IMG/VR virus record: IMGVR_UViG_3300005588_000080
Span: 1-29,159 of that record
Length of the DNA stretch: 29,159 nucleotides
Source: a virus
Strand: one strand, 5' to 3'
This document shows, piece by piece, positions 1 through 17,049 of the stretch. Position numbers and translations under genes: made by a program. Each line of letters starts with the position of its first letter. Positions within the stretch are counted from its first letter, which is position 1. The notes under the pieces were generated by a model that saw only the letters and a list, made by a program, of their open reading frames with translations, did no database searches and had not been told where the DNA came from.

Positions 1-90
1 GATGCCGACGACGGTGATGCCGACGACGGTGATGCCGACGACGGTGATGCCGACGACGGTGATGCCGACGACGGTGATGCCGACGACGGT
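1..90 (+). repeat. Tandem repeat, six perfect copies of a 15-bp unit
   Basis: The unit GATGCCGACGACGGT is repeated six times without a mismatch and may continue upstream of the window. It encodes DADDG in the frame of the truncated gene. The perfect identity suggests recent expansion, so copy number may vary between relatives. Confidence 0.95.
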
Positions 91-384
91 TCCCAGGAAG
101 AGAAGCCGTCGAAGCCGTCGAAGCCGTCGAAGCCGAAGCGAGGCCGCATTCGGAGTGCCAAGAGTCGTGGGTACTGTGCTGGTAAGGTGCTGGCAGAGCA
201 CTTCGACAGCCCAGGTGACATCAATCGCAAAAATGGGATCACTGCTGAGCTGATCGATGCGGTTGATAAGGAATACGGGAAAGCGAATCCCAAGGTGAGC
301 AAAGGTGCGCTGACGTGGGCGGTTGACGCTCTGATGGGATTTGCGGGGACTTCAGTGGAATCTGAAGGCGGCAAAAAGGAGTAG
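1..384 (+). CDS. C-terminal part of an unrecognised protein with acidic DADDG repeat linker
   Basis: The reading frame is open from the first base and stops at 382-384, so the true start lies upstream of the window. The visible part begins with six copies of the pentapeptide DADDG, then a short KPS repeat, a basic stretch (KPKRGRIRSAKSRG), and a compact C-terminal region of about 80 residues with no motif I recognise. An acidic then basic low-complexity linker ahead of a small folded domain is typical of flexible tethers, but no function can be assigned. The other two frames are also open through the repeat. This frame is preferred because it alone continues into non-repetitive protein-like sequence and ends cleanly before the next gene's ribosome binding site. 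Confidence 0.7.
   Translation, partial: DADDGDADDGDADDGDADDGDADDGDADDGSQEEKPSKPSKPSKPKRGRIRSAKSRGYCAGKVLAEHFDSPGDINRKNGITAELIDAVDKEYGKANPKVSKGALTWAVDALMGFAGTSVESEGGKKE
103..138 (+). repeat. Short tandem repeat, 9-bp unit encoding KPS
   Basis: Three perfect copies of AAGCCGTCG (103-129) are followed by a degenerate fourth copy. The repeat encodes Lys-Pro-Ser triplets in the same frame as the DADDG repeat, giving a basic, proline-rich hinge after the acidic one. Confidence 0.9.
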
Positions 385-447
385 ACGTAAGGGACGTCAC
401 GTCTTCACTTCACTACCAGCAAAACCCACTGATACCGAGGACAGTCG

Positions 448-1233
448 ATGGACATCATACTTGCACCCCACTTGGATGATGAGCTCATCGGCTGTTACTC
501 GGTATTGTCACGAGTTGGATTGGTAATCTACTTTGACAGGGATGAAAAGAGACTCGACCATCTCGATGCGGCCGATATTCCGAGAAGGTATCTTTGGTAC
601 CACGATAGCAGTGCAGCAGCGAAGGTGTCGTTGGCAAATCAGACAAGTGCGGACATTCTTTACGTACCGAGCCAGTTCGACTATCATCCACTTCATAGAA
701 TTGTGCGGTCTTGTGGAATTGATTGGGCAGGACGAACAAAGACCCAGCTTCGATTCTATTCGGTAGAAATGAATGTGCCTTGGCTCGAAGAGGAAGACGA
801 TTCCAAAGGCAAAGAAGCTCTGTTCAGAGAGTTGTATCCATCCCAAGTCGACACCATTACCAAATCAGACAAGTACTTCTTGTTCAGGTCTATCAAATCG
901 TTTGATGAAGTGATTTGGGCTACGGTGAGATTCGAAAGAGTACTCACTCATAGTTACCCTGCGGCGCCGGATGCTGTCAAATTTTTGTCACACCCACATC
1001 GCCACAAATTCCATTTCGAGGTTTCCGTACAGCAATTCCACGATGATCGAGATGTAGAGTATCTCATTTTCAGTGACTGGATTCAGAAGTGGTTCGATTC
1101 TCAGGAAAAAGGGCCGCATCTGAGCTGCGAAATGATGGCTTTGATGATCAAGCGACGTATTGAAGCGGAATACGTCGGCCGTCTTGTGAAAGTGTCTGTG
1201 TTTGAGGACGGCGAAAACGGTTGTGTTCTTTGA
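448..1233 (+). CDS. Fusion: LmbE/PIG-L-like N-acetyl hydrolase domain plus QueD-like (T-fold) domain
   Basis: 261 residues in two parts. Residues 1-160 match the PIG-L/LmbE deacetylase pattern: a PHLDDE motif (His8, Asp11), DYHPLH (His80, His83) in place of the usual HPDH, and YPSQ at 130-133. These enzymes use zinc to remove N-acyl groups from sugars or other amines. Residues 178-261 resemble the second half of 6-carboxytetrahydropterin synthase: HRHKFHF (184-190) corresponds to QueD's zinc-binding HGH segment, RDVEY to its central Asp-Phe strand, SCEMMA to its TAE helix, and Glu253 to its C-terminal Glu. The first QueD histidine is missing. The ribosome binding site GAGGA sits 7 bases before the ATG. 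It heads a 7-deazaguanine operon, so a substrate in that pathway is inferred. I recall a proposed QueD-like CDG decarboxylase, DpdL, which the second domain might resemble. That link is unverified. Confidence 0.65.
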   Translation: MDIILAPHLDDELIGCYSVLSRVGLVIYFDRDEKRLDHLDAADIPRRYLWYHDSSAAAKVSLANQTSADILYVPSQFDYHPLHRIVRSCGIDWAGRTKTQLRFYSVEMNVPWLEEEDDSKGKEALFRELYPSQVDTITKSDKYFLFRSIKSFDEVIWATVRFERVLTHSYPAAPDAVKFLSHPHRHKFHFEVSVQQFHDDRDVEYLIFSDWIQKWFDSQEKGPHLSCEMMALMIKRRIEAEYVGRLVKVSVFEDGENGCVL

Positions 1234-1254
1234 GTAAACAGTTCAGATGAGGAA

Positions 1255-2310
1255 ATGAAACAGATGACCCGAACGGTGATGAGTGATCGGTTGAAGAACC
1301 TGGAAGACTTGGCAGTTTCCCGAATCCGCCAAATGGTTGAGACATTTGGTGAAAATCGGGTGTACGCAGCCTATAGCGGCGGAAAGGACTCGCGAGTAGT
1401 CTTGCATCTCTGCCGGAAGGTGCTGCCGGGAATTACTGTCATCCACAATGGACATGCCGGCGAGAGAGTTGACGGAACAGAAGGCCTTCTCTGCGTCAAG
1501 GAGCCGAAGCTGGAAAACGTGCCGAAGTTTCTCAGTTTGGTGGATCTGGTTTGCCAGTTTGACGGCACACGAAAAGACGAAGACAAGACAGTCCAGTTCG
1601 ATGGGGAGGAGATCCATCGCTCTCAGATGCCTGATTGGATTACAGAGGATGGAGTGTTCGGCTTGACTGCGGCGTTCCCTGTCTATGAGTGGACTGATGG
1701 TGACGTGTGGGAGTATCTCGATGCTATTGAGCCTGTGCGAATTGTGTCGAGTAAGCGATCTCTGGAAGGAGAAGGGCCGTTGCTGGGTACGCCGACTCTG
1801 TTCTGTCGAGTGGCGGATGATGTGAAGCCGATGATGGATGATACTCCGGGAGTCCTTCTTCGGGATGTCGATGCAACTGGCTGCCACGCTTTGTACGTAA
1901 ACACTCAGCATCCTTCGGATAAGTTGATTTCAGAATGCTTGAAATTCAACTTACCTGTCACAGTGGACTGCCCGATGTCGCAGATCTACTTTATCTCAAG
2001 TGAGTACCGGCAGCATCACCAGGTTCAGTATTTTCTGGAGGATGCAAATTTCGGAGGAACCTCAGCTACGTGTCCGTTTCATGGGTTCGTCAAAATTACA
2101 GCTGATTTGAGATCAAGGCCGCTTGAGACCTACATCAATCAGGCGAATCTTCATGCGATTTACGGGCACCGAGTTCTGCTTATGCCGAGGTATCGAGAGA
2201 ACGTCCTCAGTGCTGCTGAATTGGGACAGCTATCGGTCAAGTTCATTGACAGGCTGCACGCGAACGTCCGTCTGATGCCACCTGTCCACGAGCTTCTGGA
2301 GATTGACTGA
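1255..2310 (+). CDS. PP-loop ATPase, PAPS-reductase-like, with extra C-terminal domain
   Basis: 351 residues. SGGKDSRVVLHL near residue 41 is the pyrophosphate-binding PP-loop, and FPVYEWTDGDVWEYL (about 142-156) is the second hallmark of the PAPS reductase/DndC-type branch. Such enzymes adenylate a substrate before sulfur or nitrogen transfer, or reduce PAPS. The C-terminal 150 residues (from about 200) are unfamiliar and contain several cysteines, including TCPFHG, but no CxxC pair. It is not a normal QueC: the loop is SGGKDS and the QueC C-terminal zinc cysteines are missing. Its position between the LmbE/QueD-like fusion and a glycosyltransferase suggests it alters the 7-deazaguanine product, perhaps replacing QueC, but this is inference. 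The start follows a GAGGA site closely. The next gene begins 2 bases after its stop. Confidence 0.65.
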   Translation: MKQMTRTVMSDRLKNLEDLAVSRIRQMVETFGENRVYAAYSGGKDSRVVLHLCRKVLPGITVIHNGHAGERVDGTEGLLCVKEPKLENVPKFLSLVDLVCQFDGTRKDEDKTVQFDGEEIHRSQMPDWITEDGVFGLTAAFPVYEWTDGDVWEYLDAIEPVRIVSSKRSLEGEGPLLGTPTLFCRVADDVKPMMDDTPGVLLRDVDATGCHALYVNTQHPSDKLISECLKFNLPVTVDCPMSQIYFISSEYRQHHQVQYFLEDANFGGTSATCPFHGFVKITADLRSRPLETYINQANLHAIYGHRVLLMPRYRENVLSAAELGQLSVKFIDRLHANVRLMPPVHELLEID

Positions 2311-2312
2311 GG

Positions 2313-3392
2313 ATGATTTACTTGCTGCCTATCGAGCCTCTCGAAGAACGTTACTCAGAGCAGTGGTATCGTTGGTTTCCGGAGGTGCTGGAAGAACGAG
2401 GAGCTCGGTTTACTGTGATTGACGGTGAGCCGCTGACGGATACAGTTGAGACTGGGACGTTTCTCGACGTCAACTCAACGCTGCATTACAAGGCGACTCA
2501 GCTTCAGAGAGTGGCGAAGCTTTTCTACGAGAACAAAATCCAGCCAGATGATGTGTTTTTCGTAGCTGACATTGAGTTCTGGGGCATTGAGTCGATTCGG
2601 TATCTATCAGTTTTGAATGGAATTGATGTCAAGATCTACGGATTTGCGCATGCCGGGAGTTATACGAGAGAAGACTTCATGGAACCGTGTGCTCCGTTTG
2701 CCCGGTGGTACGAGGTAGGCTGGGGAGCAATCTGCGATTTGATTATGGTGGGCTCTGAGTACCACAAGAAGCAGCTCATCGATAATCGAGGGATTTCTGA
2801 GAACAAAATTCTGGTTACTGGAAATCCGTACAAATCCTCTGAAGTATGCGAAGGTGCCAGATGGTTTCCCGGAGCCGAAAAGAAGAAATTGGTAGTCCAT
2901 ACCAATCGCCCGGATCCTGAGAAGAGACCTGAGCACACGCTTGATGCGTTCGCTTGGTTGCACCGGCAGCATCCTGATTGGGAATTTGCGGTAACCACTA
3001 GCCGCAAGATGTGGGCAGGCGGTCCTCTGAGAAATCGAGCTAAGAGGTACGAACAAGAAGGCTGGCTGACTGTCTACGAAGGCTTGTCAAAGAAGGAGTA
3101 TCTCAAGATACTCTCAGAAGCTCAGGTGATGACCGGAAATTCTATCGAAGAGAATTTTGGATATTGCATCCTTGAAGCTTTGATCTTCGACACCATTCCA
3201 ATCGTCGAAGATGCTTACAGTCATTCCGAATTGCTGTGCGGTGAAGAACGGTGCCTGTTCACCACGAGACCCCATCAGCTTGAACTTATCGAGCAGGCAA
3301 TGGCGGTACCGTTTCCGGTACGGCAGATGGCTTCTCGGTACGATGACAGCTTGCAGGGTATCTGCGATGTCCTCGTAGAAGGGACTCTGTGA
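2313..3392 (+). CDS. GT-B fold glycosyltransferase (GT4-like)
   Basis: 359 residues. The C-terminal half has the group 1 glycosyltransferase pattern: TNRPDPEKRPEHTLDAF around 196-212 (start of the nucleotide-sugar domain), then SIEENFGYCILEAL around 273-286 with the EX7E acidic pair. The N-terminal half has FAHAGSY and a later MVGSEYHKKQLI segment, typical of the acceptor domain. It should transfer a sugar from a nucleotide-sugar donor. The neighbours synthesise 7-deazaguanine, and cellular queuosine is known to be glycosylated by a GT4-like enzyme on tRNA. A glycosylated 7-deazaguanine in phage DNA is therefore an attractive inference. A sugar acceptor on the host surface or another base is not excluded. 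It overlaps the next gene by one base (TGATG). Confidence 0.75.
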   Translation: MIYLLPIEPLEERYSEQWYRWFPEVLEERGARFTVIDGEPLTDTVETGTFLDVNSTLHYKATQLQRVAKLFYENKIQPDDVFFVADIEFWGIESIRYLSVLNGIDVKIYGFAHAGSYTREDFMEPCAPFARWYEVGWGAICDLIMVGSEYHKKQLIDNRGISENKILVTGNPYKSSEVCEGARWFPGAEKKKLVVHTNRPDPEKRPEHTLDAFAWLHRQHPDWEFAVTTSRKMWAGGPLRNRAKRYEQEGWLTVYEGLSKKEYLKILSEAQVMTGNSIEENFGYCILEALIFDTIPIVEDAYSHSELLCGEERCLFTTRPHQLELIEQAMAVPFPVRQMASRYDDSLQGICDVLVEGTL

Positions 3393-3757
3393 TGGAAACT
3401 GTGGATTTGGTATTAGGTTCACGCGATGCTGTTCATGTTCCGTTTGTGGTGGTGGAGTGCAGTGATGATTTGGAACCTGGACAGAAAGTTTCGTTGAGAG
3501 ATCCTGCGACCTCGAGGACACTTAATCACGGGTTCGGGTCTCCATTACGATGTGTGATTTGGGATGGTGGTGGGACTTGTGAACCTGAATGGCATGGAGT
3601 TGTTGATCCGTTTTTGGACGGAAAGGTCTCTGCCGGCACTCTTTTTCGGTGTATGATTCGTCCGGGATTTTTTTCGAGTTTTCGTCACACTTTTCGGATA
3701 GAAACGCACGACAGTGGAGGCACTTCTACGTGTTCTTCCGTGTGCGATATTGTGTAA
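3392..3757 (+). CDS. Small conserved-looking protein of unknown function inside the modification operon
   Basis: 121 residues counted from the ATG that overlaps the preceding stop. A GTG three bases earlier is also in frame, but the TGATG arrangement favours the ATG. The sequence is beta-rich, with LEPGQKVSLRD near the N-terminus and HGVVDPFL followed by an RPGFFSSFRHTF segment. I have seen comparable small phage proteins carrying a VDPFL motif followed by a LRH-type segment, with no known function. It has no signal peptide or membrane helix. It lies between the glycosyltransferase and QueD, so a role in base modification is possible but unsupported. Confidence 0.7.
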   Translation: METVDLVLGSRDAVHVPFVVVECSDDLEPGQKVSLRDPATSRTLNHGFGSPLRCVIWDGGGTCEPEWHGVVDPFLDGKVSAGTLFRCMIRPGFFSSFRHTFRIETHDSGGTSTCSSVCDIV

Positions 3758-3772
3758 GAGAGAGGCTTTGCT

Positions 3773-4252
3773 GTGAGTCGATCTACAGTCATTACTCGAA
3801 AAATTGAATTTGATGCTGGGCATCGGGTTCTCGGGCATGAGTCGAAATGTGCAAATCTGCACGGGCATCGGTACGTTGCTGAGATATCTGTCACAGCTGA
3901 TGCTCTGGATAGTCTGAGCAGGGTGGTTGATTTCAGTGTCGTAAAGAAAATTGTTGGTGGTTGGATTGATGAATATTGGGATCACAATTTTCTTCTGAAT
4001 CGAAACGATCCCTTGTGCGACGTACTGGACAGCATGACTGACGAGGAAGCCAGAGAGTTGGTCGGACCAAAGACGCCGTATTTGATGCCTGATGGACTCA
4101 ATCCAACGGCAGAGACCATGGCGGAAGTTTTGTTTGAAGTGGCTGTTGATTTGCTTGAAGATGAGCTGGTCACGGTCACTCATGTGCGGCTCTATGAAAC
4201 ACCGAATTGCTGGGCAGATTATGGAGAAGAACACACAGAAGATAGAGCCTAA
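3773..4252 (+). CDS. queD: 6-carboxy-5,6,7,8-tetrahydropterin synthase QueD
   Basis: 159 residues. It converts dihydroneopterin triphosphate to 6-carboxytetrahydropterin, the second step to 7-deazaguanine. The family signature is clear: FDAGH (His17) and HGH (His30, His32) bind zinc, Cys26 in the KCANLHGH segment is the catalytic cysteine, DHNFLL (Asp70, His71) supplies the catalytic Asp/His, and TAE plus YETPNCW near the C-terminus complete the fold. An insert of roughly 30 residues follows DHNFLL. The start is a GTG preceded by GAGAGAGG. The QueE gene begins inside its last 32 bases in another frame, so the two are probably translationally coupled. Confidence 0.93.
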   Translation: MSRSTVITRKIEFDAGHRVLGHESKCANLHGHRYVAEISVTADALDSLSRVVDFSVVKKIVGGWIDEYWDHNFLLNRNDPLCDVLDSMTDEEARELVGPKTPYLMPDGLNPTAETMAEVLFEVAVDLLEDELVTVTHVRLYETPNCWADYGEEHTEDRA

Positions 4253-4922
4253 GGATGCTCATCCGGACGGTTCGGTGGAAGTCCATTCGATCTGGGATAC
4301 AGTGCAAGGCGAAGGCCCCTTTTTTGGGACGCCGGCTGTCTTTATCCGGTTGGCAGGCTGTAATCTACAGTGCCATTGGTGCGACACTGACTACACTTCT
4401 GTTCGAAAAAGAATGACACCTTTGGATGTAGTCGAAGAGTTGTCGGCTTTGCCGAGCAGAAAGCTGATAGTCATCACTGGAGGTGAGCCTTTCCGTCAAA
4501 ATCTGCAATCTTTGGTTCTTCGTCTCATTGACGAGATGGGTCCGGGCGGGATTGTGCAGATAGAGACAAACGGTACACTAGGTGTGCCGTTCATCCTGGC
4601 AAAGATGTCAGTGGTATGTTCGCCGAAGACACGGTCAATCCCACATCAAACCGCTATGAGAGCGGATGCATTCAAGTATGTGGTGAAAGCTGGATTGATT
4701 GATTCGAGTGATGGACTGCCTTTAGTGTCGGTCGGACCTCAATATGGTCGTCCGTACCGCCCACCGATGCTCAATCAAGTGGCTGACAAAATTTTTGTGC
4801 AGCCGCTGGACGAAAAAGATGAGATCAAGAACAAGAAGAACCTGGATGCTGCGGTGGAATCCTGCCGTAGATTCGGTTATCGCTTGTCTGTACAGACCCA
4901 CAAATTGGCAGGACTGGATTGA
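4221..4922 (+). CDS. queE: 7-carboxy-7-deazaguanine synthase QueE (radical SAM)
   Basis: 233 residues from the ATG at 4221. It contracts 6-carboxytetrahydropterin to 7-carboxy-7-deazaguanine (CDG). Near the N-terminus are VQGEGPFFGTPAVFIRL and then GCNLQCHWCDTDY, whose CX3CX2C cysteines (47, 51, 54) hold the 4Fe-4S cluster that cleaves S-adenosylmethionine. TGGEP follows and contacts SAM, and ETNGT is also typical. The frame remains open far upstream inside queD. The ATG chosen gives a family-typical N-terminus, and the ribosome binding site before it is weak, consistent with coupling to queD. It overlaps folE by one base (TGATG). Confidence 0.93.
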   Translation: MEKNTQKIEPKDAHPDGSVEVHSIWDTVQGEGPFFGTPAVFIRLAGCNLQCHWCDTDYTSVRKRMTPLDVVEELSALPSRKLIVITGGEPFRQNLQSLVLRLIDEMGPGGIVQIETNGTLGVPFILAKMSVVCSPKTRSIPHQTAMRADAFKYVVKAGLIDSSDGLPLVSVGPQYGRPYRPPMLNQVADKIFVQPLDEKDEIKNKKNLDAAVESCRRFGYRLSVQTHKLAGLD

Positions 4923-5554
4923 TGGATTTGAACGAGGACTATCGCATTCTGGCAAATGTCACATCAGATGCTCTTCGTCGAGCAGCAGAAATCACGATCG
5001 ACCAAGCTAAAGATGCGGTTACCACTTTGCTTCGGTTTATCGGCGAAGATCCCACTCGGGAGGGTCTTCTCGATACTCCGAGGCGGGTGGCGGCTAGTTT
5101 GCTTGAGATGAACTCAGGGTACCAAGAGTCCGAAGATGCAGCCATGGAAAGAATTATGACTGTGTTCGAGGATGGTGCTTGCAATGAAATGGTGCTCTTG
5201 AGAAGCATTGAGTTCATCTCATTGTGCGAGCACCACATGCTGCCGTTTTCTGGTCGAGCTCATATTGCGTATCTACCAGACGGAAAGATCATCGGTATCT
5301 CGAAGTTGGCTCGGATTTTGGATTACTATTCACGGCGGTTGCAGGTACAAGAGCGACTGTGCCAGCAGGTGTCTGATGCACTGAACAAGCATTTGCAGCC
5401 AAAGGGAGCTGCGTGTGTGATTGAGGCCCATCATTCGTGCATGAGCTGCCGAGGAGTAGGGAAAAGAGACTCGGTCATGGTTACTTCGAGTCTGTACGGA
5501 TCATTCCTTGAACCGGCAGTCCGTTCTGAGTTCTTTGATTTGATTAAGGAGTGA
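4922..5554 (+). CDS. folE: GTP cyclohydrolase I FolE
   Basis: 210 residues. It opens GTP to dihydroneopterin triphosphate, the entry step for 7-deazaguanine synthesis. GEDPTREGLLDTPRRV (41-56), the zinc motif CEHH (Cys102, His105), GLSK-like GISKLARI, QVQERL and HHSCMSCRGV (third zinc ligand Cys173) are all present, and the length matches the bacterial IA enzyme. The start overlaps the queE stop (TGATG). An in-frame TTG just upstream is less likely. Together with queD and queE it supplies CDG without relying on host enzymes. Confidence 0.95.
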   Translation: MDLNEDYRILANVTSDALRRAAEITIDQAKDAVTTLLRFIGEDPTREGLLDTPRRVAASLLEMNSGYQESEDAAMERIMTVFEDGACNEMVLLRSIEFISLCEHHMLPFSGRAHIAYLPDGKIIGISKLARILDYYSRRLQVQERLCQQVSDALNKHLQPKGAACVIEAHHSCMSCRGVGKRDSVMVTSSLYGSFLEPAVRSEFFDLIKE

Positions 5555-5559
5555 GCGCG

Positions 5560-6030
5560 ATGGCTCAGATGACGACAAGTGAACGCGCAGACATCAAGAA
5601 GTTGATCGATGACCGATATCTGGCGGGAATGAGGGAGTTGGCAGTAACTGATGAGTCGCATGAGCGGCGACTTGAGGAACGATGTCGAAAGGTTGCTGTC
5701 GGCCGTCTCAAGATTGCGAAGGAGCTGGCAGAGGTTGAACGACTGGAAGCGGAGTACGCAAGTATCGGCGAGAAGCTGGAAGTGGCCAGGGAGAAGCTAA
5801 ACAAGAAACTGCCGTACGAGAAACGTCATCACTCGCGATCGTGTCCGTCAAGAATGGATCTGTGCTCTGCGATTGCGGCGGTTGTCGATGAGGTAAGAGA
5901 GGCCGAGCGTGCCAAAGACGCAACTGGCAGGAAGGTGCTGCAGCTTCGTGCCGAAAAACAGCGGCGATATGAGAAGTTGGCTGGTTGCCGGACTCAAGAA
6001 GACGTCGCGGCGGCTCGAATTTTTGATTAA
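5560..6030 (+). CDS. Coiled-coil protein of unknown function
   Basis: 156 residues. The sequence is charged and mostly helical, with heptad-like Lys/Glu/Leu-rich stretches at roughly 45-90 and 110-145 separated by a short HHSRSC segment, so it is probably a coiled-coil hairpin. It has no membrane segment or enzymatic motif. The ATG at 5560 lies 8 bases after AAGGAG. A GTG at 5551 is in frame but falls at the edge of that site. The gene sits between folE and the transglycosylase gene, and a supporting or scaffolding role in the modification pathway is only a guess. Confidence 0.75.
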   Translation: MAQMTTSERADIKKLIDDRYLAGMRELAVTDESHERRLEERCRKVAVGRLKIAKELAEVERLEAEYASIGEKLEVAREKLNKKLPYEKRHHSRSCPSRMDLCSAIAAVVDEVREAERAKDATGRKVLQLRAEKQRRYEKLAGCRTQEDVAAARIFD

Positions 6031-6043
6031 GGAGTGAGTATCA

Positions 6044-7117
6044 GTGCCCTTGATGCTTGACAGTGGTGCGTTTTCTGTTTGGAACTCTGGCGCTGAAATC
6101 GATATCAGAACGTACATCGATTTCTGTCATCAGCATCCTGGTGTGTCGTACTATGTGTGCCTGGATGCCATTCCTGGTAAACCTGGACTGCCGAATTCTC
6201 GATTGCCTGAATTGGTGGCGGCTGCCTGTGAGACGAGCTGGAACAATTATCAGCTGATGATCAAAGAGCTGCCCATCGAAAAAGTCATTCCGGTCTTCCA
6301 CCGAGGAGAGGACTTGAAGTGGCTGGAAAGGTACATCGAGTTCGGCAGTCCTTATGTCGGGCTTGGTCAGACTTGCGGCTTTGGGTCCAAAGATTCTCAG
6401 AAGAGGTATTTGACTGGGCTCCAGAAATTGCTGTTTGATGGAGCTGGTAGGCCGACAGTCAAGACTCATGGGTTTGCCGTCACGTCGTTTCAGTTGATGA
6501 AGTACCAGTGGTGGTATTCAGTTGATTCGGCGAGCTGGCTGAAGCAGGCAGCCTATGGAGTGATTTACATTCCGAAGAAGAGGAATGGTGAGTTTGTTTA
6601 TGACGAACCACCATTCTTGCTGAATACGTCCCCGAAGTCTCCAACTCGGGATGAACGGAATACGCATTACACGACTCTGTCGCCTACGCTTCGTGCATGG
6701 GTAGACGAGTACCTTCAGGAAAAGAAGCTGCCTGTCGGTGAGATTGAGATAGTAGACGTTTCTTCGGGGTATAAGAAATCGCCTGATGAGCTTTGGTTCG
6801 ACGGCAAAAAGAATAAGGTGGTGCGGACGGTCACTCCTGGAGTAGTTACATCTCACCAATGGCGGTTTCGAGCGAATGCTGGATTCATCATTCGAGCGAA
6901 TCAGGATTTGCCCGTCGATCACATCTATTTCGCTGGCGGCGAAGGATCTATCGACGATTCCGTTGAATTTCGTCTGAGAAGACGGTTGATGTCCTATCAT
7001 AAGATTGGGATGACGACGACAACTAAGGGGCACAAGGCATTTCGGAAATGGACAGAGATTGCACCGAAGCAAAAAATCGAACCGAGTGGGTCAATGCTGA
7101 CATCGACCTCTTCTTAG
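6044..7117 (+). CDS. dpdA: DpdA-like guanine transglycosylase (7-deazaguanine insertion into DNA)
   Basis: 357 residues. The protein begins with LDSGAFS (Asp6), which corresponds to the DSGGFQ catalytic segment of tRNA-guanine transglycosylases. GLGQTCGFG (about 106-114) and HGFAVTS (142-148) match the TIM-barrel substrate loops, and YSVDSASW (Asp161) supplies the probable nucleophilic Asp. Phage DpdA enzymes use this scaffold to replace guanine in DNA with a 7-deazaguanine. The linked folE-queD-queE genes make that role much more likely than a tRNA role. The C-terminal 120 residues (about 235-357) are not recognised and may bind DNA. I did not assign a DpdA subfamily. The GTG start follows AAGGAG by 9 bases. 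The 3' end overlaps the next gene by 70 bases. Confidence 0.82.
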   Translation: MPLMLDSGAFSVWNSGAEIDIRTYIDFCHQHPGVSYYVCLDAIPGKPGLPNSRLPELVAAACETSWNNYQLMIKELPIEKVIPVFHRGEDLKWLERYIEFGSPYVGLGQTCGFGSKDSQKRYLTGLQKLLFDGAGRPTVKTHGFAVTSFQLMKYQWWYSVDSASWLKQAAYGVIYIPKKRNGEFVYDEPPFLLNTSPKSPTRDERNTHYTTLSPTLRAWVDEYLQEKKLPVGEIEIVDVSSGYKKSPDELWFDGKKNKVVRTVTPGVVTSHQWRFRANAGFIIRANQDLPVDHIYFAGGEGSIDDSVEFRLRRRLMSYHKIGMTTTTKGHKAFRKWTEIAPKQKIEPSGSMLTSTSS

Positions 7118-7485
7118 AGATGGTGCTGCCTGCAGATTCGAAGCAGGAGTACGAGAGAGCACTGGTTGCCTTCGGAAAGCGATACGATCGGGATGCCTAT
7201 AGTAGCTTGATCCAGGGGGACCATTTGCTGCGGCGTCGAGCAGTCCGAAGAACTGACTATGAACTAGACCCTGCGAAAGAGGGAAGAACTGTTCGTACTG
7301 GAGAGCGATTCACATGGACTGAGGATCGAGTCATTCGCTGGGGGCTGAGTACTGATTCAGAGAGAGTTCGGGAGAACTCCCCTGAATATTTGGCCAACAT
7401 GCTGTGCCGGACTGTTGATGAGGTTGTCAGCAGAATTGATACACTTTTGAACACCAAGTCAGGGATTCGAGGATTCGAATTATGA
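7048..7485 (+). CDS. Hypothetical protein, possible small DNA-binding fold
   Basis: 145 residues. The only in-frame ATG near the beginning lies inside the 3' end of the transglycosylase gene, a 70-base overlap that is large for this genome. The C-terminal half (FTWTEDRVIRWGL, then LANMLCRTVDEVVSRIDTL) is reminiscent of a Myb/SANT-like helix-turn-helix, where a tryptophan-rich first helix is followed by a recognition helix. The N-terminal half is charged and unremarkable. Its stop overlaps the sliding clamp start by 4 bases (ATGA), so it is probably cotranslated with the clamp. The function is unknown. Confidence 0.7.
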   Translation: MDRDCTEAKNRTEWVNADIDLFLEMVLPADSKQEYERALVAFGKRYDRDAYSSLIQGDHLLRRRAVRRTDYELDPAKEGRTVRTGERFTWTEDRVIRWGLSTDSERVRENSPEYLANMLCRTVDEVVSRIDTLLNTKSGIRGFEL

Positions 7486-8540
7486 AGTCTCAGGTTGATC
7501 GTGCTGAAGTTTTGCTCGCTCTGGAGTCTGTCTCTCCGGGACTTGCTGCTAAAGAACTGCTGCAGCAGTCTACATCTTTCGTTTTCGACTCAGGAAATGT
7601 CGTTACGTTCAATGATGAAATTTCCTGCATTCGCAAGAATCCATTTCCTGGTACGTTGACAGGAGCAGTACGAGCGGCTCCGCTCCTGGAACTCTTGAAT
7701 AAGATGACTGACGATTCTTTGCTGGCAGAAACTAACGGATCTGAATTGATTCTGTCAGGAGCAGGAAAACGCGCAAAGTTTCGGATGGAATCTGATGTTC
7801 TGCTTCCTCTTGATTCTGTTGAAGATGCGACTGATTGGTACGATCTACCTGAATCTTTTGACGAGGCGGTAGGACTTGTCCATGCTTGCGCCAGTTCAGA
7901 AGAAAGTCTTTTCGTCTTGACGTGCGTCCATTTGGCACCGGAGTTTATCGAGGCTTGCGACAGATTTCAGATGGCTCGATACTCATTGGATTTGGAATGG
8001 CTGCCTGAGGCCATGTCTAAGATTCCTGGCCAAGAAGATCAGGTCGATACAATGATTCGAGCTGATTCTTTGAAACGAGTAATCGGGCTCGGGATGACCA
8101 AAGCCAGTGTATCAGAAGGATGGATGCACTTCAAAAACAACCAAGGACTGAAGGTTTCAGTCCGACGGCATTTGGACAGCTACAGCGACATTTCGAAGTA
8201 TCTGCACGGAGAAGATACTTCGCCGGTTGCGATGCCTGGTGGGCTCGATGAAATTGTCGAGCGGGCCCGGATTTTCTCTCAAGAAAAAGCGGATGCCAAC
8301 AATCTGATGGTGATTCTGAGGGAAGATACGATTGTCATCAAAGGCGAAGGCGCTTCTGGTGAGTACGCGGAGAAGCGGAAGGTATCTTACAAAGACAAGC
8401 CGATTCGATTTTTGATTGCTCCAAGTCTGTTAGTGGAAATCAGCAAACGATCAACACAGTGCGGTGTCGGTGGTAACCGATTGTTCGTTGATGCTGGGAA
8501 TCTGAAATACGCAGCCAGTACCTGTTGCGTCGAGGAGTAG
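7482..8540 (+). CDS. dnaN: Sliding clamp, DNA polymerase III beta-like
   Basis: 352 residues, close to the 360-380 of bacterial beta clamps. No catalytic motif is expected. Recognition rests on the three-domain pattern: an N-terminal helix RAEVLLALESVSPGL followed by short beta strands (FDSGNVVTFNDEISCI), repeats of the pattern near 120 and 240, and a C-terminal domain with a LDEIVERARIFSQEK helix, then paired strands, then IRFLIAPSLLVEI. The clamp would tether the family A polymerase encoded at 10867. A DnaX-like loader is encoded at 12381, which supports the call. Sequence identity to true DnaN looks low. Confidence 0.72.
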   Translation: MKSQVDRAEVLLALESVSPGLAAKELLQQSTSFVFDSGNVVTFNDEISCIRKNPFPGTLTGAVRAAPLLELLNKMTDDSLLAETNGSELILSGAGKRAKFRMESDVLLPLDSVEDATDWYDLPESFDEAVGLVHACASSEESLFVLTCVHLAPEFIEACDRFQMARYSLDLEWLPEAMSKIPGQEDQVDTMIRADSLKRVIGLGMTKASVSEGWMHFKNNQGLKVSVRRHLDSYSDISKYLHGEDTSPVAMPGGLDEIVERARIFSQEKADANNLMVILREDTIVIKGEGASGEYAEKRKVSYKDKPIRFLIAPSLLVEISKRSTQCGVGGNRLFVDAGNLKYAASTCCVEE

Positions 8541-8543
8541 GCG

Positions 8544-9779
8544 GTGGCAGTTGGAGGCTTTTTTCCGGAATCAATTGTACGCAGCAAGCCGGCGGTTCAG
8601 GGTACTGTACCTAGATGCGGACAGTGCGGGCTCTGGGAATCGTGCAGTAGTCCGAAGTTTGAGGTCTCAGGGAAGGGGCGGCTTGGTGTTTTGATTGTCG
8701 GTGAGGCTCCTGACAGGGACGAGGATATCCAAGGCAATTCGTTCGTCGGGAAAGCTGGTCAGTATCTTCGGCGGTACTTAGAGTCCATTGGTATTGATTT
8801 TGATCGAGACTGCTGGGCGACGAATGCTATCATTTGTCATCCGGCAGGCGGCAGAGCTCCAAAGCCAGATGAAGTCGATGCATGCCGCCCAAACTTGACG
8901 AATTTCCTCAAGGAGTACAAACCGAAGGTCATCATACCTTTAGGCGGCTCAGCGATTCGTTCTGTTTTGAGTCCTTTCTGGAAGACTGATCCAGGCGGCG
9001 TGAATCGTTGGGTAGGGTATCAAATACCACTCCAGCGAATAAATTCTTGGGTGGTGCCGGATTTCCATCCATCATTCATTCTGACGAATGATCGCAAACC
9101 GAATGGTCCGGTAACTCGGTTGTGGTTCGAGCGGTGCTTGAAACAGGCTTTTGATCTCAGCGGTAGTAGGCCGTGGACTGAAGTGCCTGACTATCGTGGG
9201 CAAGTGGAGTTGGTGCATGACCCTGACGAAGCTGCTGCCATTATCAGAGAATGGTGCAAAACACCGCGTCCGGGGTCATTTGATTACGAAACGACATGCC
9301 TTAAGCCTGATGCTGATACCAGCCAGATTGTATCCTGTGCGGTTTCTTACGCAGGCAGACGCACCATTGCTTTTCCTTGGGCGGGAGCAGTGAAGGAAGC
9401 GATGAGCGAGTGGCTTCAGTCGCCGTGCCCTAAGATAGGGGCCAACAACAAATTCGAAGATCGGTGGACTCGAGCGGAGTTTGGGCATTCAGTGAATAAC
9501 TGGGTATGGGATACAATGCTGTCCGCTCATCACTTGGATAATCGCCCTGATACAAAATCAGTTGAGTTTCAGGCTTTTGTACGGTTAGGATTTGAGCCGT
9601 GGAGCGGATCAATGGGCCGGGACCTGAAAACTGGTAGCGGGTCTAGTTCGTACGATCAGAATCAGCTGGTACATACGGATAGAAGGACATCGCTGACGTA
9701 CAATGGGCTAGATGCTTTGGTTGAGTATCTCGTAGCAAAGCACCAAAAGAAAGAAATGGTCGATGGAAACGCAGTATGA
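8544..9779 (+). CDS. Uracil-DNA glycosylase (family 4/5-like) fused to DnaQ/PolA-type 3'-5' exonuclease
   Basis: 411 residues, two enzymes in one chain. Residues 1-205: CGQCGLWESC near 25-34 suits part of a 4Fe-4S site, IVGEAPDRDEDIQGNSFVGKAG (first 20 residues are the family 4 motif 1 region) binds uracil, and FHPSFIL (about 174-180) is motif 2. Residues 225-411: a DYET box (DxE), GANNKFEDRW with a later WDT, and YNGLDALVEY (YxxxD) give the DEDDy proofreading exonuclease. This is the N-terminal equipment of a family A polymerase, but the polymerase domain is on a separate gene about 1.1 kb downstream. SPO1's polymerase is known to carry a UDG-like domain. A GTG start follows GAGGAG. Confidence 0.85.
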   Translation: MAVGGFFPESIVRSKPAVQGTVPRCGQCGLWESCSSPKFEVSGKGRLGVLIVGEAPDRDEDIQGNSFVGKAGQYLRRYLESIGIDFDRDCWATNAIICHPAGGRAPKPDEVDACRPNLTNFLKEYKPKVIIPLGGSAIRSVLSPFWKTDPGGVNRWVGYQIPLQRINSWVVPDFHPSFILTNDRKPNGPVTRLWFERCLKQAFDLSGSRPWTEVPDYRGQVELVHDPDEAAAIIREWCKTPRPGSFDYETTCLKPDADTSQIVSCAVSYAGRRTIAFPWAGAVKEAMSEWLQSPCPKIGANNKFEDRWTRAEFGHSVNNWVWDTMLSAHHLDNRPDTKSVEFQAFVRLGFEPWSGSMGRDLKTGSGSSSYDQNQLVHTDRRTSLTYNGLDALVEYLVAKHQKKEMVDGNAV

Positions 9780-10155
9780 ATCTCCGTCTGAGAAATCATT
9801 GGCACTGATTCAGAGTGAGGTAGCCAAGTGGTCTCGGGTGAATTTCGGGGATCAGGTCAGCAAGGCGACAGACCAGGTGCTAGGGTCTTTGAGCCCGTTG
9901 CTCGGGCTAGTCGAAGAAGTGGGCGAGCTGTCGCATGTCACTCTGAAGCATCATCAGGGAATTCGTGGTTACGACGATGAGCAGAAATATCAAGAGGAAC
10001 GGGACGATGCTGTTGGTGACATTCTGATCTACTTGTGCGATTATGCGTCCCGTGAAGGAATTTCTCTGCAAGATGCTTTGAATAAGACTTGGCAAAAAAT
10101 TGTCAAGAAGAGAAATTGGGTCGATAATCCGGAGACAGGACAGTGTCTAGGTTAG
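9763..10155 (+). CDS. MazG-like nucleotide pyrophosphohydrolase
   Basis: 130 residues. GLVEEVGELSHVTLKHHQG and, later, RDDAVGDILIYLCDYA carry the EExxE...DxxxD metal-binding pattern of all-alpha NTP pyrophosphohydrolases. SLQDALNKTWQKIVKKRNW at the end is a standard MazG-like tail. These enzymes cleave NTPs or dNTPs to monophosphates. In phages they may clear unwanted nucleotides or lower host alarmone levels. The start lies 17 bases inside the glycosylase/exonuclease gene. The next gene overlaps by 13 bases. Confidence 0.85.
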   Translation: METQYESPSEKSLALIQSEVAKWSRVNFGDQVSKATDQVLGSLSPLLGLVEEVGELSHVTLKHHQGIRGYDDEQKYQEERDDAVGDILIYLCDYASREGISLQDALNKTWQKIVKKRNWVDNPETGQCLG

Positions 10156-10763
10156 AAATGTGCAATCCTGCGTCGATGAAGTCTCGCCGAGTCAAGTCGG
10201 TTGTGGTTACTCCTGAAGCTCTTCTTGATTTGCTGAAGGTGCGGCCAGGCGGGGAAGTAGTTGACGGTATCCGGGTTCAGTTTGCTGATGACGGCATTCC
10301 TGACTCGGCGACGGCTTTGAGGGCGGGGCTCGATCACAACGGAAATATTCATCTTTTGGTTGAAGATGAATCATTTTCAGAGATACGAGAAGGAGAAGTG
10401 GTCACTCGACTGAGTCTGCTTTATACGCACCAACGAGAACCGAATGAGATTGATAGAGCAATCCAGGTGCTTAATCGCGCATTGGCTGCATCGCCGAATT
10501 CGATCCGATTTCTTGTGGAAAACCGGACGGTTTGTACTGAATCGTTGGCAGATGATCCGACGATTCAGTGCGCCGAGGATGAAGGATCTTGGTTCGTCGG
10601 GATGTTGGGTATCATCAACGGGATCCTAGGGGTTGATAGAAATAGTGGGTATGGTCCCATTCAGGCGATGTTTGATGCTAAAACAGGAAACATCCTTCGG
10701 TTTGAGAGATCTAGACGGTGTAAAGAAGAGAATATCCATCACCCAGGAGTACAGTCCCAGTGA
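10143..10763 (+). CDS. Hypothetical protein
   Basis: 206 residues from a GTG 8 bases after GGAG. Internal ATGs at 10158 and 10176 are alternatives. It is soluble and of mixed alpha/beta character, with no motif I recognise. A central helix EIDRAIQVLNRALAA is clear. The C-terminal GSWFVGMLGIINGILG segment is hydrophobic and may be buried rather than transmembrane. The gene lies between mazG-like and a tiny membrane protein in the polymerase operon, and its stop overlaps the next start. No function can be offered. Confidence 0.7.
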   Translation: MSRLEMCNPASMKSRRVKSVVVTPEALLDLLKVRPGGEVVDGIRVQFADDGIPDSATALRAGLDHNGNIHLLVEDESFSEIREGEVVTRLSLLYTHQREPNEIDRAIQVLNRALAASPNSIRFLVENRTVCTESLADDPTIQCAEDEGSWFVGMLGIINGILGVDRNSGYGPIQAMFDAKTGNILRFERSRRCKEENIHHPGVQSQ

Positions 10764-10870
10764 GTAGTGGTGGTGGTCCGAATTTGGATAAGTTCGTGCT
10801 GATCACTACTGTGATCTGTTTTGGGCTCTTTGTTGTTCTGTTTGCTGTTGCTTGGGTGACAACTCTGTGA
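10760..10870 (+). CDS. Tiny single-span membrane protein (36 residues)
   Basis: GTG start 11 bases after AGGAG, overlapping the previous stop (GTGA). The peptide has a short glycine-rich N-terminus, then about 23 hydrophobic residues (KFVLITTVICFGLF onwards), and ends almost at the membrane. The last codons overlap the polymerase start. Its size, ribosome binding site and overlaps on both sides support a real gene. It could be an inner-membrane peptide anchoring replication proteins or simply a translational coupler. Confidence 0.65.
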   Translation: MSSGGGPNLDKFVLITTVICFGLFVVLFAVAWVTTL

Positions 10871-12255
10871 ATCAAATCGTCGCATCAACACCAGAAGCTT
10901 ACCAATTACTGATGCAAGGGGCTCAGGCTTTGACAGATGTCGAAGCGAACGGCATGCGGATTGATGTTGATTATCTTGACCGAGTGATCAAGCAGGCAGG
11001 TCAGAAAATCAGACGAATGGAAGTAGAGCTCAAAGACGATGAGATTTGGGCTCTTTGGCGAAAGACATTTCCAGGAAGAGCTGAATTAGGCAGTAAGGAA
11101 CAGCTTGGTAAGATTCTCTTTGGGGTGATGGAAATACCGTCGACCCGAACAACAGACACAGGCAGGGCTGCAGCAGATATCGAGGCGCTTGAAGAGATCG
11201 ACTTACCTTTCGTCAAGAAATTCCTGTCGCTCGAGAAGCTGAAGAAAGCTCGTGGCACCTATCTGCAAGGAATTCGTCGAGAAACCGTTGATGGCTTTCT
11301 GCATCCGAATTTTGATTTGTGCTTTGCTCGTACGTTTCGGAGCTCAAGCTCTACCCCGAATTTCCAAAACATGCCTATTCGGGATCCCCGGCAAGCGAAG
11401 TTGATACGACGAGCATTTATCCCAAGAACGCCGGAGCACTTGTTGGTCGAGATCGATTATTCGGCTCTTGAGTTTCGTGGGGCAGCTTGCCAGTGGAATG
11501 ATCCATCGATGGTGGCGTATGCGAGCGACCCTAGTCTGGACATCCATCGAGACATGACAGCAGAGTGCTATTCTATTTCTGCTGATCAGGTCACGAAGGC
11601 TGCTCGAGGGATGGGGAAGAACAAATTCGTTTTTCCGATTCTCTATGGCAGTTATTGGGGGAGCTGCGCAGAGGCTTTGTGGGCTGTCATTGATCGAATG
11701 GACCTTAAGACTGTTGATGGTGTCGGTCTGCACGAGCACTTGAGTAGTGTTGGTATCAATGCTCTTGGAAACAAGAAGCATCCAGAGATGGATTCGTTCT
11801 ATCGACATGTCAAAAAAGTCGAGCAGAGATTTGGAGATCGGTTTCCGGTCTGGCGTGACAAGAAAGAGGTTTGGTGGAACGAGTACCTCAAACGCGGTTG
11901 GTTCAAGATGATGACCGGGTTTGTGTGCAAAGGGGTCTACACCAAGAACAACATCTACAACTATCCAATTCAAGGACCATCATTTCATCTTCTTCTCTGG
12001 TCTCTCATTCAAGTGAATGAGTGGTTGAAGCAGAATAAGATGCGTTCTAAAGTAATCGGTCAGATTCATGATTCAATGGTGCTAGACGTGCATCAGGATG
12101 AGTTTGACGACGTAATTTACGAAGTCAATCAAGTGATGACACAGAAGGTTCGTCAGCATTGGGATTGGATTGTCGTGCCTTTGGAAATCGAAGCCGAGGC
12201 TTCTCCGACGAATTGGTTTGAGAAGAAAGCGGTGGACGTAACGCAGGTGGTCTAA
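10867..12255 (+). CDS. DNA polymerase, family A, polymerase domain only
   Basis: 462 residues from a GTG that overlaps the preceding stop (GTGA). A TTG at 10852 is also in frame but less likely. Motif A is LVEIDYSALEFRGA (catalytic Asp), motif B lies in RGMGKNKFVFPILYG, and motif C is GQIHDSMVLDV (catalytic Asp after His). A thumb-like region with TFRSSSSTPNFQNMP precedes motif A. Motif B has one residue more than the usual spacing between Lys and Tyr, and the FVFPILYG form differs from the textbook NFGLIYG. There is no exonuclease domain here. It is encoded at 8544 together with a uracil-DNA glycosylase. This is presumably the replicative polymerase, working with the clamp and loader nearby. 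Confidence 0.93.
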   Translation: MNQIVASTPEAYQLLMQGAQALTDVEANGMRIDVDYLDRVIKQAGQKIRRMEVELKDDEIWALWRKTFPGRAELGSKEQLGKILFGVMEIPSTRTTDTGRAAADIEALEEIDLPFVKKFLSLEKLKKARGTYLQGIRRETVDGFLHPNFDLCFARTFRSSSSTPNFQNMPIRDPRQAKLIRRAFIPRTPEHLLVEIDYSALEFRGAACQWNDPSMVAYASDPSLDIHRDMTAECYSISADQVTKAARGMGKNKFVFPILYGSYWGSCAEALWAVIDRMDLKTVDGVGLHEHLSSVGINALGNKKHPEMDSFYRHVKKVEQRFGDRFPVWRDKKEVWWNEYLKRGWFKMMTGFVCKGVYTKNNIYNYPIQGPSFHLLLWSLIQVNEWLKQNKMRSKVIGQIHDSMVLDVHQDEFDDVIYEVNQVMTQKVRQHWDWIVVPLEIEAEASPTNWFEKKAVDVTQVV

Positions 12256-12259
12256 AGAT

Positions 12260-12355
12260 AGTCGAGTGGAGTTGCTGTTTTTAGAATGATTCTATTACAG
12301 CCATTTGACATGACGACGTGGAACCTCGAAGGGCAGAGCCTCTACTCGACTTTTT
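12260..12355 (+). ncRNA. Candidate structured RNA or structured terminator between polymerase and clamp loader genes
   Basis: This is most of the only sizeable gap in the replication block (12256-12380). An 11-bp stem pairs 12260-12270 with 12341-12351 (one G-U pair) and is followed at once by a T run (12351-12355). Inside it is a hairpin formed by GCTGT (12274-12278) with ACAGC (12297-12301), topped by TAGAA/TTCTA, and a smaller GGC-AGA-GCC hairpin at 12332-12340 stacked against the closing stem. This looks like a multi-branched RNA. It could be a small RNA, a leader of the clamp-loader transcript, or an elaborate terminator. Folding was judged by eye only. Confidence 0.45.
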
Positions 12356-12380
12356 AATTCAGCAAGAAAGAATTCGATCG

Positions 12381-13319
12381 ATGGCAGACACTGATTTGTA
12401 CATTCGGCATCGTCCTTCGAGTTTCGAAGAAGTGGTGGGGCAGCATGCTGCAGTCAATCAGCTTGAGAAGATGCACGCAGCTGGTAAGATACCGCATGTT
12501 CTTTTGTTCACTGGACCCAGTGGCACAGGCAAAACCACTCTTGCTCGCATTGTGAAGAGTACTCTTGACTGCAGTGATATGGATTTTGTCGAGATCAATG
12601 CAGCGCGTGAGCGTGGTATTGATATGGTGCGTGAGTTGTCGAGTCAGTGCCGAGCAATGCCGGTTGCAGGGAAGTCGAGAGTGTTCTTGCTCGACGAGTG
12701 CCACGCCCTCTCTTCGGATGCTCAGAGTGCTCTGCTGAAGGTGCTAGAAGACACACCAAAGCATGTCTATTTCATGCTGGCTACGACAGACCCTCAGAAG
12801 CTGAAACAGACAATTCGCACCCGAGCGACACAGATCAAGTGTGTTTCTCTGAAGAATGCCGAAGTCGCGAGTTTAGTGAAGGCGGTCATCAAGGCAGAAG
12901 GGCTCACCAATGTCACTGGAGCTGCTGCCAAAAAGTTGGTGCAGGTCAGTCAAGGATCAGCTCGGCAGGCATTGGTCATTTTGAATCAGATTGCAGAGCT
13001 GCCTGACGAGGAATCTCAGATTGAGGCTATTGAAGCTTCTGACTGGGAAGCTGATGCAATTCAGATCGCCAGGCTATTGTTTCGAAAAGGGACTCGGTGG
13101 AAAGAAGTTGCTGATGTCATCAGTAACCTTTCGAAAGACGAGAACTTCGAAGGGCTTCGGCGGATGATCCTGTCGTACGCCACCAGTGTAATCCTGAAAC
13201 CTGGAGGCCAGGATGCTCAGCAGCGTGCAGCTGACATCTTGGACGAGTTTCGAGACAATTATTTTGACACAGGAAAAGCTGGGTTGGTGCTGAATTGCTG
13301 GAATGCGGTGAATCGTTGA
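12381..13319 (+). CDS. Clamp loader ATPase, DnaX/RFC-like
   Basis: 312 residues from the ATG at 12381. An in-frame GTG at 12318 would add residues and would run through the structured element, and the DnaX family normally has about 20 residues before VVGQ, as here. GPSGTGKTT (45-53) is Walker A, VFLLDECHA (Asp105-Glu106) is Walker B, and RTRA (146-149) contains the arginine finger region. EFRDNYFDTGK and similar helices form the C-terminal collar. It would open the sliding clamp encoded at 7482. The zinc-binding cysteines of bacterial DnaX are missing, as in archaeal RFC and phage loaders. Confidence 0.9.
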   Translation: MADTDLYIRHRPSSFEEVVGQHAAVNQLEKMHAAGKIPHVLLFTGPSGTGKTTLARIVKSTLDCSDMDFVEINAARERGIDMVRELSSQCRAMPVAGKSRVFLLDECHALSSDAQSALLKVLEDTPKHVYFMLATTDPQKLKQTIRTRATQIKCVSLKNAEVASLVKAVIKAEGLTNVTGAAAKKLVQVSQGSARQALVILNQIAELPDEESQIEAIEASDWEADAIQIARLLFRKGTRWKEVADVISNLSKDENFEGLRRMILSYATSVILKPGGQDAQQRAADILDEFRDNYFDTGKAGLVLNCWNAVNR

Positions 13320-13331
13320 CAGAATGAGACC

Positions 13332-13994
13332 ATGTCGATCAATTACGAATTCCACTATGTCTGCCTTTTGTGCGGAGCAGTGCATCGTGGATACCAACCG
13401 ATGGGCGGCTGCTGCAATTGCAAAGGCAAGGTCTTCGAAAAAGTAGACAAGAGGAGAACTAAGGTGGGTGAGTTGATTCCTGATCTGAGACTTGACATTG
13501 ATCGGCTCAAATTGGACGAAGAATGGCTGGATCAGCCGAGGCAGATGTACGAGTGGTCTAAGCGAGTCGCTGATGCGCAGATGAGTTTGGATGAGGCTCG
13601 CAGCCATCTTGATGTGACTCGAGCTGAACTCGATCGGGAGGTTCGCTCTAATCCCGGAGACTACGGGCTTGTCAAAGTTACAGAGGGATCGATTTCTGCT
13701 GCGATCGAAGAAGATCCACGGTGCATGAAAGCCAACTCTGCGGTGCGCAAAGCACGGCACGCAGTTGACGTCGCGAAGGCGGCTGTTGCGGCGTTAGAGC
13801 ACCGGAAACGGGCGCTGACGCAGCTGGTTGAGTTGTTTGTGCGGGATTATTACTCGGGGATGCCGCAAGGGAGTACGCAATCATCAGGGGAATTGCGACG
13901 ACCGGTGACGGATGCTGAAAAAGAAGACGTACGAAAGCGAGGACAGAGGGATCGTCGGCAAGAGGTTGTTGACGAAGATCGAGAATTTGATTAG
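13332..13994 (+). CDS. UvsY-like recombination mediator with N-terminal zinc ribbon (putative)
   Basis: 220 residues. The N-terminus has CLLCGAVH and then GGCCNCKG, two cysteine pairs that form a zinc ribbon. From about residue 45 the protein is helical: LIPDLRLDIDRLKLDEEWL, then MYEWSKRVADAQ, later SAVRKARHAVDVAKAAVAAL and HRKRALTQLVELFVRDYYS. That long helical pattern, including the tryptophan-containing helix and terminal RKR...LVEL...Y, resembles UvsY-type phage mediators that load the recombinase on single-stranded DNA. The neighbours, an SSB and a UvsX/RecA recombinase within 1.5 kb, support the role. The C-terminal 40 residues are charged and probably disordered. It could instead be a helical protein of another kind. 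Confidence 0.55.
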   Translation: MSINYEFHYVCLLCGAVHRGYQPMGGCCNCKGKVFEKVDKRRTKVGELIPDLRLDIDRLKLDEEWLDQPRQMYEWSKRVADAQMSLDEARSHLDVTRAELDREVRSNPGDYGLVKVTEGSISAAIEEDPRCMKANSAVRKARHAVDVAKAAVAALEHRKRALTQLVELFVRDYYSGMPQGSTQSSGELRRPVTDAEKEDVRKRGQRDRRQEVVDEDREFD

Positions 13995-14003
13995 GAGTTC
14001 GGG

Positions 14004-14171
14004 GTGTCAGACTCCTTTTGGATTACGTGTCAGGTGGCTGCTGCAGCCGTGGCCATCTTTTTGTTTGTACCGGTACTAGTCTTCCAGTGTGTGAAGATGG
14101 GTCGGTTTGGGTGGCTTGCGGCTGCTGACTACTACGAAAAACGAAAGAAAGAAGGTTCAATCAATGGCTAA
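14004..14171 (+). CDS. Small membrane protein (55 residues)
   Basis: GTG start 6 bases after AGGAG at 13993-13997. Residues 9-29 are hydrophobic (QVAAAAVAIFLFVPVLVF) and form one membrane helix. The C-terminus is basic and polar (DYYEKRKKEG), predicting an N-out/C-in topology. The stop lies inside the first codons of the SSB gene (8-base overlap). It is too short for most gene callers, but the ribosome binding site and overlap make it credible. Function unknown. Confidence 0.65.
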   Translation: MSDSFWITCQVAAAAVAIFLFVPVLVFQCVKMGRFGWLAAADYYEKRKKEGSING

Positions 14172-16720: not shown

Positions 16721-16826
16721 GGAGCTCTTAGATTTAGGTTGGAGGTTTTTGGTTCTTTTGCTAGACTCAATAAGGGATTGATCAGTTGCTGAGAGCAGCT
16801 GGTATTGATAGTTGTGTCAAATTCAC

Positions 16827-16842
16827 GGAAAGGACAGGAGGA
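16827..16842 (+). promoter_or_regulatory. Probable CsrA self-binding site over the csrA ribosome binding site
   Basis: Four GGA motifs lie in 16 bases directly before csrA (GGAAAGGACAGGAGGA). The ACAGGAG core matches the known CsrA consensus and contains the AGGAGG Shine-Dalgarno sequence, 7 bases before the ATG. CsrA family proteins commonly repress their own translation this way. Binding is inferred. Confidence 0.5.
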
Positions 16843-16848
16843 CACACA

Positions 16849-17049
16849 ATGTTGGTTCTATCAAGACTGCGAGATGAAAAGATCGTTATTGGCGGTAACA
16901 TCGTCATCACGGTGGTTGATATTCGCGGCGACAAAGTTCGTTTAGGAATTGATGCACCGAAAGAGATTTCAGTGCATCGATTGGAGGTGCATGAGGCGAT
17001 TCAAAAGGAAAAGGAAAAGGAACACCTCAGTGAAGTGGCTGCTGCTTGA
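16849..17049 (+). CDS. csrA: CsrA/RsmA carbon storage regulator homologue
   Basis: 66 residues, the usual family length. The start MLVLSR, then EKIVIGGNIVITVVDIRGDKVRLGI (shown in part) and APKEISVHR, follow CsrA throughout. Leu4 and Arg44 of the RNA-binding surface are kept. CsrA dimers bind GGA motifs in mRNA leaders and block or enhance translation. A phage copy could reprogramme host carbon metabolism or control phage messages. The frame is open upstream, but the ATG with AGGAGG is clearly the start. The C-terminus is a short KEKEKE helix plus an alanine-rich tail. The 5' nuclease gene begins 20 bases before its stop. Confidence 0.93.
   Translation: MLVLSRLRDEKIVIGGNIVITVVDIRGDKVRLGIDAPKEISVHRLEVHEAIQKEKEKEHLSEVAAA

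Follow-up and report, generated by a model that had tools for sequence, protein, structure and literature searches.

Gene organization of the locus

The window, i.e. the whole 29,159-bp IMG/VR record that was analysed, carries a putative 7-deazaguanine operon in its left part (448–7117), and replication genes then come after DpdA. An intact core block of FolE, QueD, QueE and a DpdA-type transglycosylase (3773–7117) is preceded by a fusion protein, a PP-loop protein and a glycosyltransferase (GT; 448–3392) (Table 1). An earlier note had recognised the four core genes by motif and had named the extra ones. Family models and intact catalytic residues bore out the four core enzymes, and the LmbE/QueD-like fusion, the PP-loop ATPase (with an SGGKDS motif) and the glycosyltransferase (GT-B/GT4) were all confirmed as real. 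The starts of QueE and FolE were corrected and probably lie at 4221 and 4922.

Table 1. Genes of the operon and the evidence for their assignment (positions in the window)
Position	Strand	Product	Evidence
448..1233	+	LmbE/PIG-L-like deacetylase domain (~1-150) fused to QueD-fold DpdL-like domain (~155-261)	Motifs, AlphaFold, structural match
1255..2310	+	PAPS-reductase-type PP-loop ATP pyrophosphatase domain (1-170) and QueE-derived domain X (~165-351)	Pfam, Foldseek, hhalign
2313..3392	+	GT-B (GT4-like) glycosyltransferase	Pfam Glycos_transf_1 E 1.5e-10, R/K pair, EX7E
3389..3757	+	Unknown protein, phrog_17232-like	Not kept in related operons
3773..4252	+	QueD, 6-carboxytetrahydropterin synthase	PTPS E 3e-31, phrog_2389
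4221..4922	+	QueE, 7-carboxy-7-deazaguanine synthase (radical SAM)	Radical SAM and QueE models, phrog_2076 E 3.5e-50
4922..5554	+	FolE, GTP cyclohydrolase I	Family match E 4e-67
5551..6030	+	Unknown charged protein, probably coiled-coil	No significant family match
6044..7117	+	DpdA-type DNA-guanine transglycosylase	phrog_887 E 4e-42, tblastn, motif alignment

Further genes were noted outside the operon. At 8544–12255 a uracil-DNA glycosylase (UDG) is fused to a DNA-polymerase-A 3′–5′ exonuclease domain, the polymerase domain having its own gene; L208, a phage-like contig from a Halanaerobiales MAG, has a similar UDG–exonuclease gene after the clamp. A phage CsrA homologue (16786–17049; Pfam E 8e-23) is a possible host translation regulator, and a papain-family (C1) cysteine peptidase (22618–23262) lies amid replication and recombination genes.

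Predicted CDG synthesis and insertion into DNA

Motif alignments showed that QueD keeps its catalytic residues (C..LHGH and the DH pair), that FolE keeps CEHH and the second zinc Cys, and that DpdA keeps LDSGAFS and SVDS; the CX3CX2C motif is present in QueE. The family assignment of DpdA comes solely via the PHROG ‘queuine tRNA-ribosyltransferase’ model, and PDB sequence searches with DpdA, as with domain X, gave no useful match. By tblastn, DpdA is closest to those of phages ZHS, PaMx25 and 9g, and a sliding clamp is encoded nearby, likewise in 9g and PaMx25. Matches to this DpdA are rare, occurring in 189 of 50,697 annotated phage records.

The locus thus holds a CDG synthesis set with its catalytic residues together with a DpdA-type transglycosylase, the genes expected for phage 7-deazaguanine DNA modification. 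The claim that the phage makes 7-carboxy-7-deazaguanine (CDG), a guanine analogue, and swaps a base into its DNA is well supported by these intact orthologues, and the phage DNA very probably carries a 7-deazaguanine.

Genome extent and search for QueC

A search with the PP-loop protein identified a second record of the same virus, IMGVR_UViG_3300010392_003744 (55,805 bp), which overlaps the window at 18–14956 with one mismatch (99.99% identity). This longer contig contributes ~41 kb upstream, including head and tail genes, so that ~70 kb were seen jointly. The window record starts within a tandem repeat (1–75; GATGCCGACGACGGT) that the longer contig also contains, and this repeat is the likely cause of the assembly break. 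Since no obvious terminase was found in the ~70 kb of joined contigs and their ends do not overlap, the sequence is not closed to a circle and a small part of the genome is missing.

The earlier note had seen no QueC and called for a search of the remaining genome. This search agreed with it: PF06508 had no match in the window or the 55,805-bp contig, and neither QueC nor Gat-QueC, the markers of the preQ0/archaeosine branch, was found within the ~70 kb seen of this incomplete genome. The whole records behind 38 other GT loci, complete cultured phage genomes included, likewise gave only four marginal partial matches and no clear QueC, in contrast to the strong matches in all three control phages 9g, PaMx25 and ZHS (E below 1e-48). 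The sequence data support the pathway suggested before, of the CDG type, without QueC and with added tailoring genes, and this comparison strengthens it.

The LmbE-like/DpdL-like fusion protein

The AlphaFold model of the fusion protein (pLDDT 88.6) predicts a QueD fold for the C-terminal half, which matches E. coli QueD (4ntk) with a TM score of 0.74. The family of this domain keeps the histidines and the base-binding Glu and is missing the position of the QueD catalytic Cys; the motifs HRH, SCE and EDGENG occur in nearly all of its 83 members. The C-terminal half is thus a paralogue of QueD that lacks the catalytic Cys; it is linked to FolE, QueD, QueE and DpdA and probably belongs to the published DpdL family. 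DpdL reportedly acts as a decarboxylase in the formation of phage 7-deazaguanine DNA, a role that is said to be predicted only. That the domain decarboxylates CDG here is possible, if somewhat doubtful.

In the N-terminal half, the LmbE metal motifs PHLDDE and HPLH are invariant among eight homologues. In structure this half matches 3dfi only weakly (E 0.14), and its Pfam PIG-L score of 20.2 bits is below the cut-off of 28.2. Phage X1 encodes LmbE and DpdL as separate genes. A first count of 71 LmbE loci was an artefact of a profile contaminated by DpdL sequences and was discarded in favour of strict motifs and a profile of the LmbE domain alone. The scan with the latter yielded 24 other viral loci, all 24 with a GT and 18 with a PP-loop gene; the six without it are L103 and L106–L110, four of which are near-identical. 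LmbE and GT gene pairs were also seen on Thermoplasmatales, Halanaerobiales and Woesearchaeota MAG contigs (L207, L208 and L209), which are probably viral, and the system would thus widen towards archaea.

The PP-loop protein and domain X

The N-terminal domain of the PP-loop protein matches Pfam PAPS_reduct (E 6.5e-10) and resembles CysD and FAD synthase in Foldseek searches. In the family scan, matches past about the fifth viral locus covered the short PP-loop motif only and were not used. The C-terminal domain X aligned with 60 QueE sequences over 166 columns (hhalign probability 96.4%, E 1e-9); smaller profile alignments gave no support for this relationship, and Foldseek with domain X returned no QueE match. 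Judged by the large profile comparison, domain X is QueE-derived, and it has lost the iron–sulphur cysteines (CX3CX2C). PP-loop and X are separate genes in L018 and L020. In several loci an X-like protein is encoded directly upstream of the GT, and in 19 others this site is taken by a radical SAM protein whose best NCBIfam match, below cut-off, is AprD4, a sugar diol-dehydratase.

QueC is also a PP-loop enzyme, and the protein might therefore be a non-orthologous QueC that uses ammonia to turn CDG into ADG or preQ0; alternatively, a host QueC might do so, the base again being of the ADG/preQ0 type. In L208, where the genes are ordered similarly, a protein of the QueC family (Pfam E 3.6e-30) sits directly upstream of LmbE–GT–DpdA, at the place expected for the PP-loop gene. 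This single case fits such a replacement and is also a hint at the carboxylate of CDG as the target of the PP-loop enzyme. However, the PP-loop protein itself has no PF06508 match and is outside the QueC family, most GT systems have neither enzyme, and such a role would not account for the strict association with LmbE and GT. We consider an ADG/preQ0-type base quite improbable.

The glycosyltransferase is tied to deazaguanine genes

The GT keeps the R/K pair and EX7E of GT4 enzymes in addition to its Pfam domain. A GT-only profile detected 393 IMG/VR relatives, and the best 80 loci, 79 of them non-self, were analysed with gene profiles built here. FolE, QueD, QueE, DpdL and/or DpdA were present in 78 of these 79 loci, and QueC in none. 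The individual counts (DpdL 71, DpdA 68, FolE 61, QueE 55, QueD 49) are lower bounds and not independent, because contig ends truncate many of the loci and some are almost copies of each other. The GT was seen in 16 annotated phage records, each with a DpdL-like gene; cultured phages sharing the gene set are X1, PA5oct, Phosso, ACP17 and BUCT-ZZ01.

When 105 GTs were placed in a tree, those linked to LmbE fell into a single clade (2 label changes, against 25.5 in shuffles), as expected if the sugar of the GT and the deacetylase belong together, which is indirect evidence. A phage-encoded UDP-glucose 4-epimerase is part of the cluster in 10 loci, and one such enzyme tested is GalE by NCBIfam (332.8 bits vs a cut-off of 262.3). 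Judged by this conserved association, the extra genes are part of the system, not chance neighbours, which strengthens the earlier idea that they may make a new derivative, the product itself being a prediction.

On the other hand, the DNA might contain plain CDG or, via DpdL, 7-deazaguanine, with GT, LmbE and PP-loop serving other targets such as virion or cell-surface glycans. Phages with dCDG and dDG and without QueC are indeed reported by Cui et al. (2023), and the same virus has a separate block of glycosyltransferase- and methyltransferase-like genes with a cytidylyltransferase off the operon. This explanation appears unlikely in view of the near-constant company of deazaguanine genes, the frequent position of the GT next to DpdL or DpdA, and the fusion of QueD-like and QueE-like base-pathway paralogues to LmbE and PP-loop.

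The joint presence of DpdL-like and GT genes in 71 of the 79 loci would also suit a decarboxylative C-glycosylation at C7, performed by DpdL and GT together, with LmbE and PP-loop then tailoring the C-linked sugar. CDG would be the substrate of both enzymes, and C-nucleoside biosynthesis offers a chemical precedent. Known decarboxylative C-glycosylations, however, take PRPP and are not catalysed by GT-B enzymes, and the GT loci L038, L042 and L049 are without DpdL. This makes a C-linked sugar formed in this way very unlikely.

Other genes were observed around the relatives. A Vut_1/YhhQ-type queuosine-precursor transporter gene lies near GT and DpdA in L038, L042, L049, L059, L084, L085 and L089; in some of these loci FolE, QueD and QueE were not seen, and there the phage may rely on an imported base. 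Clusters in L011, L012, L069, L074, L075, L081, L084, L089, L090 and L093 include a phosphoribosyltransferase gene, which might salvage guanine released by DpdA. The cytidylyltransferase off the operon (L007, 10186–10923) is CMP-sugar synthetase-like, and L085 has a similar one ahead of DpdA–GT.

Proposed pathway

In our view, the best and a moderately probable explanation is an operon for 7-deazaguanine DNA modification that works without QueC and has a sugar branch, its chemistry being predicted. FolE, QueD and QueE would convert GTP to CDG, as judged from the intact orthologues. The GT would put a sugar onto the deazaguanine; the base is likely bound by domain X, derived from QueE, and by the DpdL-like domain, derived from QueD. 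LmbE would strip an N-acetyl group to give an amino sugar, and the PP-loop domain would activate a carboxylate, most simply that of CDG, for coupling to an amine, much as QueC uses ammonia and Cap9 uses a protein N-terminus. Before or after this tailoring, DpdA would swap guanine in DNA for the base.

These steps differ in confidence. It is likely that the base is glycosylated, and the chances that the sugar is an amino sugar are close to even. Amide coupling by the PP-loop enzyme is rather doubtful, and the type of sugar linkage is a guess. Cap9 couples CDG to an amine (PMC13279940), and in phage S-B43 a carboxylate on DNA serves as a handle for amide hypermodification (PMC12783734). The two tailoring routes compete, since decarboxylation of CDG by the DpdL-like domain would leave no carboxylate for the PP-loop enzyme. 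As a speculative and fairly unlikely extension, the PP-loop ligase would join the CDG carboxylate to the amino sugar freed by LmbE, placing a glycosamine-amide 7-deazaguanine in phage DNA, and the wider GT family with different partners would make a series of sugar-bearing deazaguanines in many phages and perhaps archaeal viruses.

Comparison with known systems

In phage DNA, modified cytosine and thymine/uracil are known to carry sugars. We know of no glycosylated guanine analogue in DNA, so such a base, if confirmed, would be new as far as we are aware. The searchable literature, whose coverage does not extend to Cui et al. (2023), contained no description of glycosylated deazaguanine in DNA. 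The GT-containing gene set recurs in many phages and may represent an undescribed kind of DNA armour; it predicts a sugar-bearing base in cultured phages, PA5oct-type Pseudomonas phages included. If true, the pathway would also explain what the paralogue of QueD, the cluster-less QueE and the PP-loop protein of PAPS type do.

The nearest known chemistry is that of QueC-less phages, which reportedly carry dCDG or dDG and use FolE, QueD, QueE and DpdA with DpdL. The present operon resembles them in its CDG synthesis genes, transglycosylase, DpdL-like gene and absence of QueC, and the same small QueD-like gene recurs in Cellulophaga phage phi13:1 and in ACP17. GT, LmbE, PP-loop and the QueE-derived domain are extra here, and phi13:1 has no GT. 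The dG+ and preQ0 systems of phages 9g and PaMx25 (Queuovirinae) share the DpdA type and its position near the sliding clamp, but have (Gat-)QueC and are missing GT, LmbE and DpdL.

In mycothiol and bacillithiol synthesis, a GT4 enzyme (MshA, BshA) is followed by an LmbE-family N-deacetylase (MshB, BshB). The same GT4 and LmbE pairing is found here, with a different acceptor and a link to base modification. For the ATP-dependent coupling of CDG to an amine, Cap9 deazaguanylation in type IV CBASS (PMC13279940) is the proposed analogue, although Cap9 is a QueC-family enzyme with a protein target and the PP-loop protein here is of the PAPS-reductase type. The closest cultured relative is Xanthomonas phage X1 (GT 44% identity), whose cluster likewise has FolE, PP-loop, LmbE, an X-family protein, GT, a DpdL-like protein and QueE, but differs in its unfused LmbE/DpdL and PP-loop/X genes and in another DpdA subfamily.
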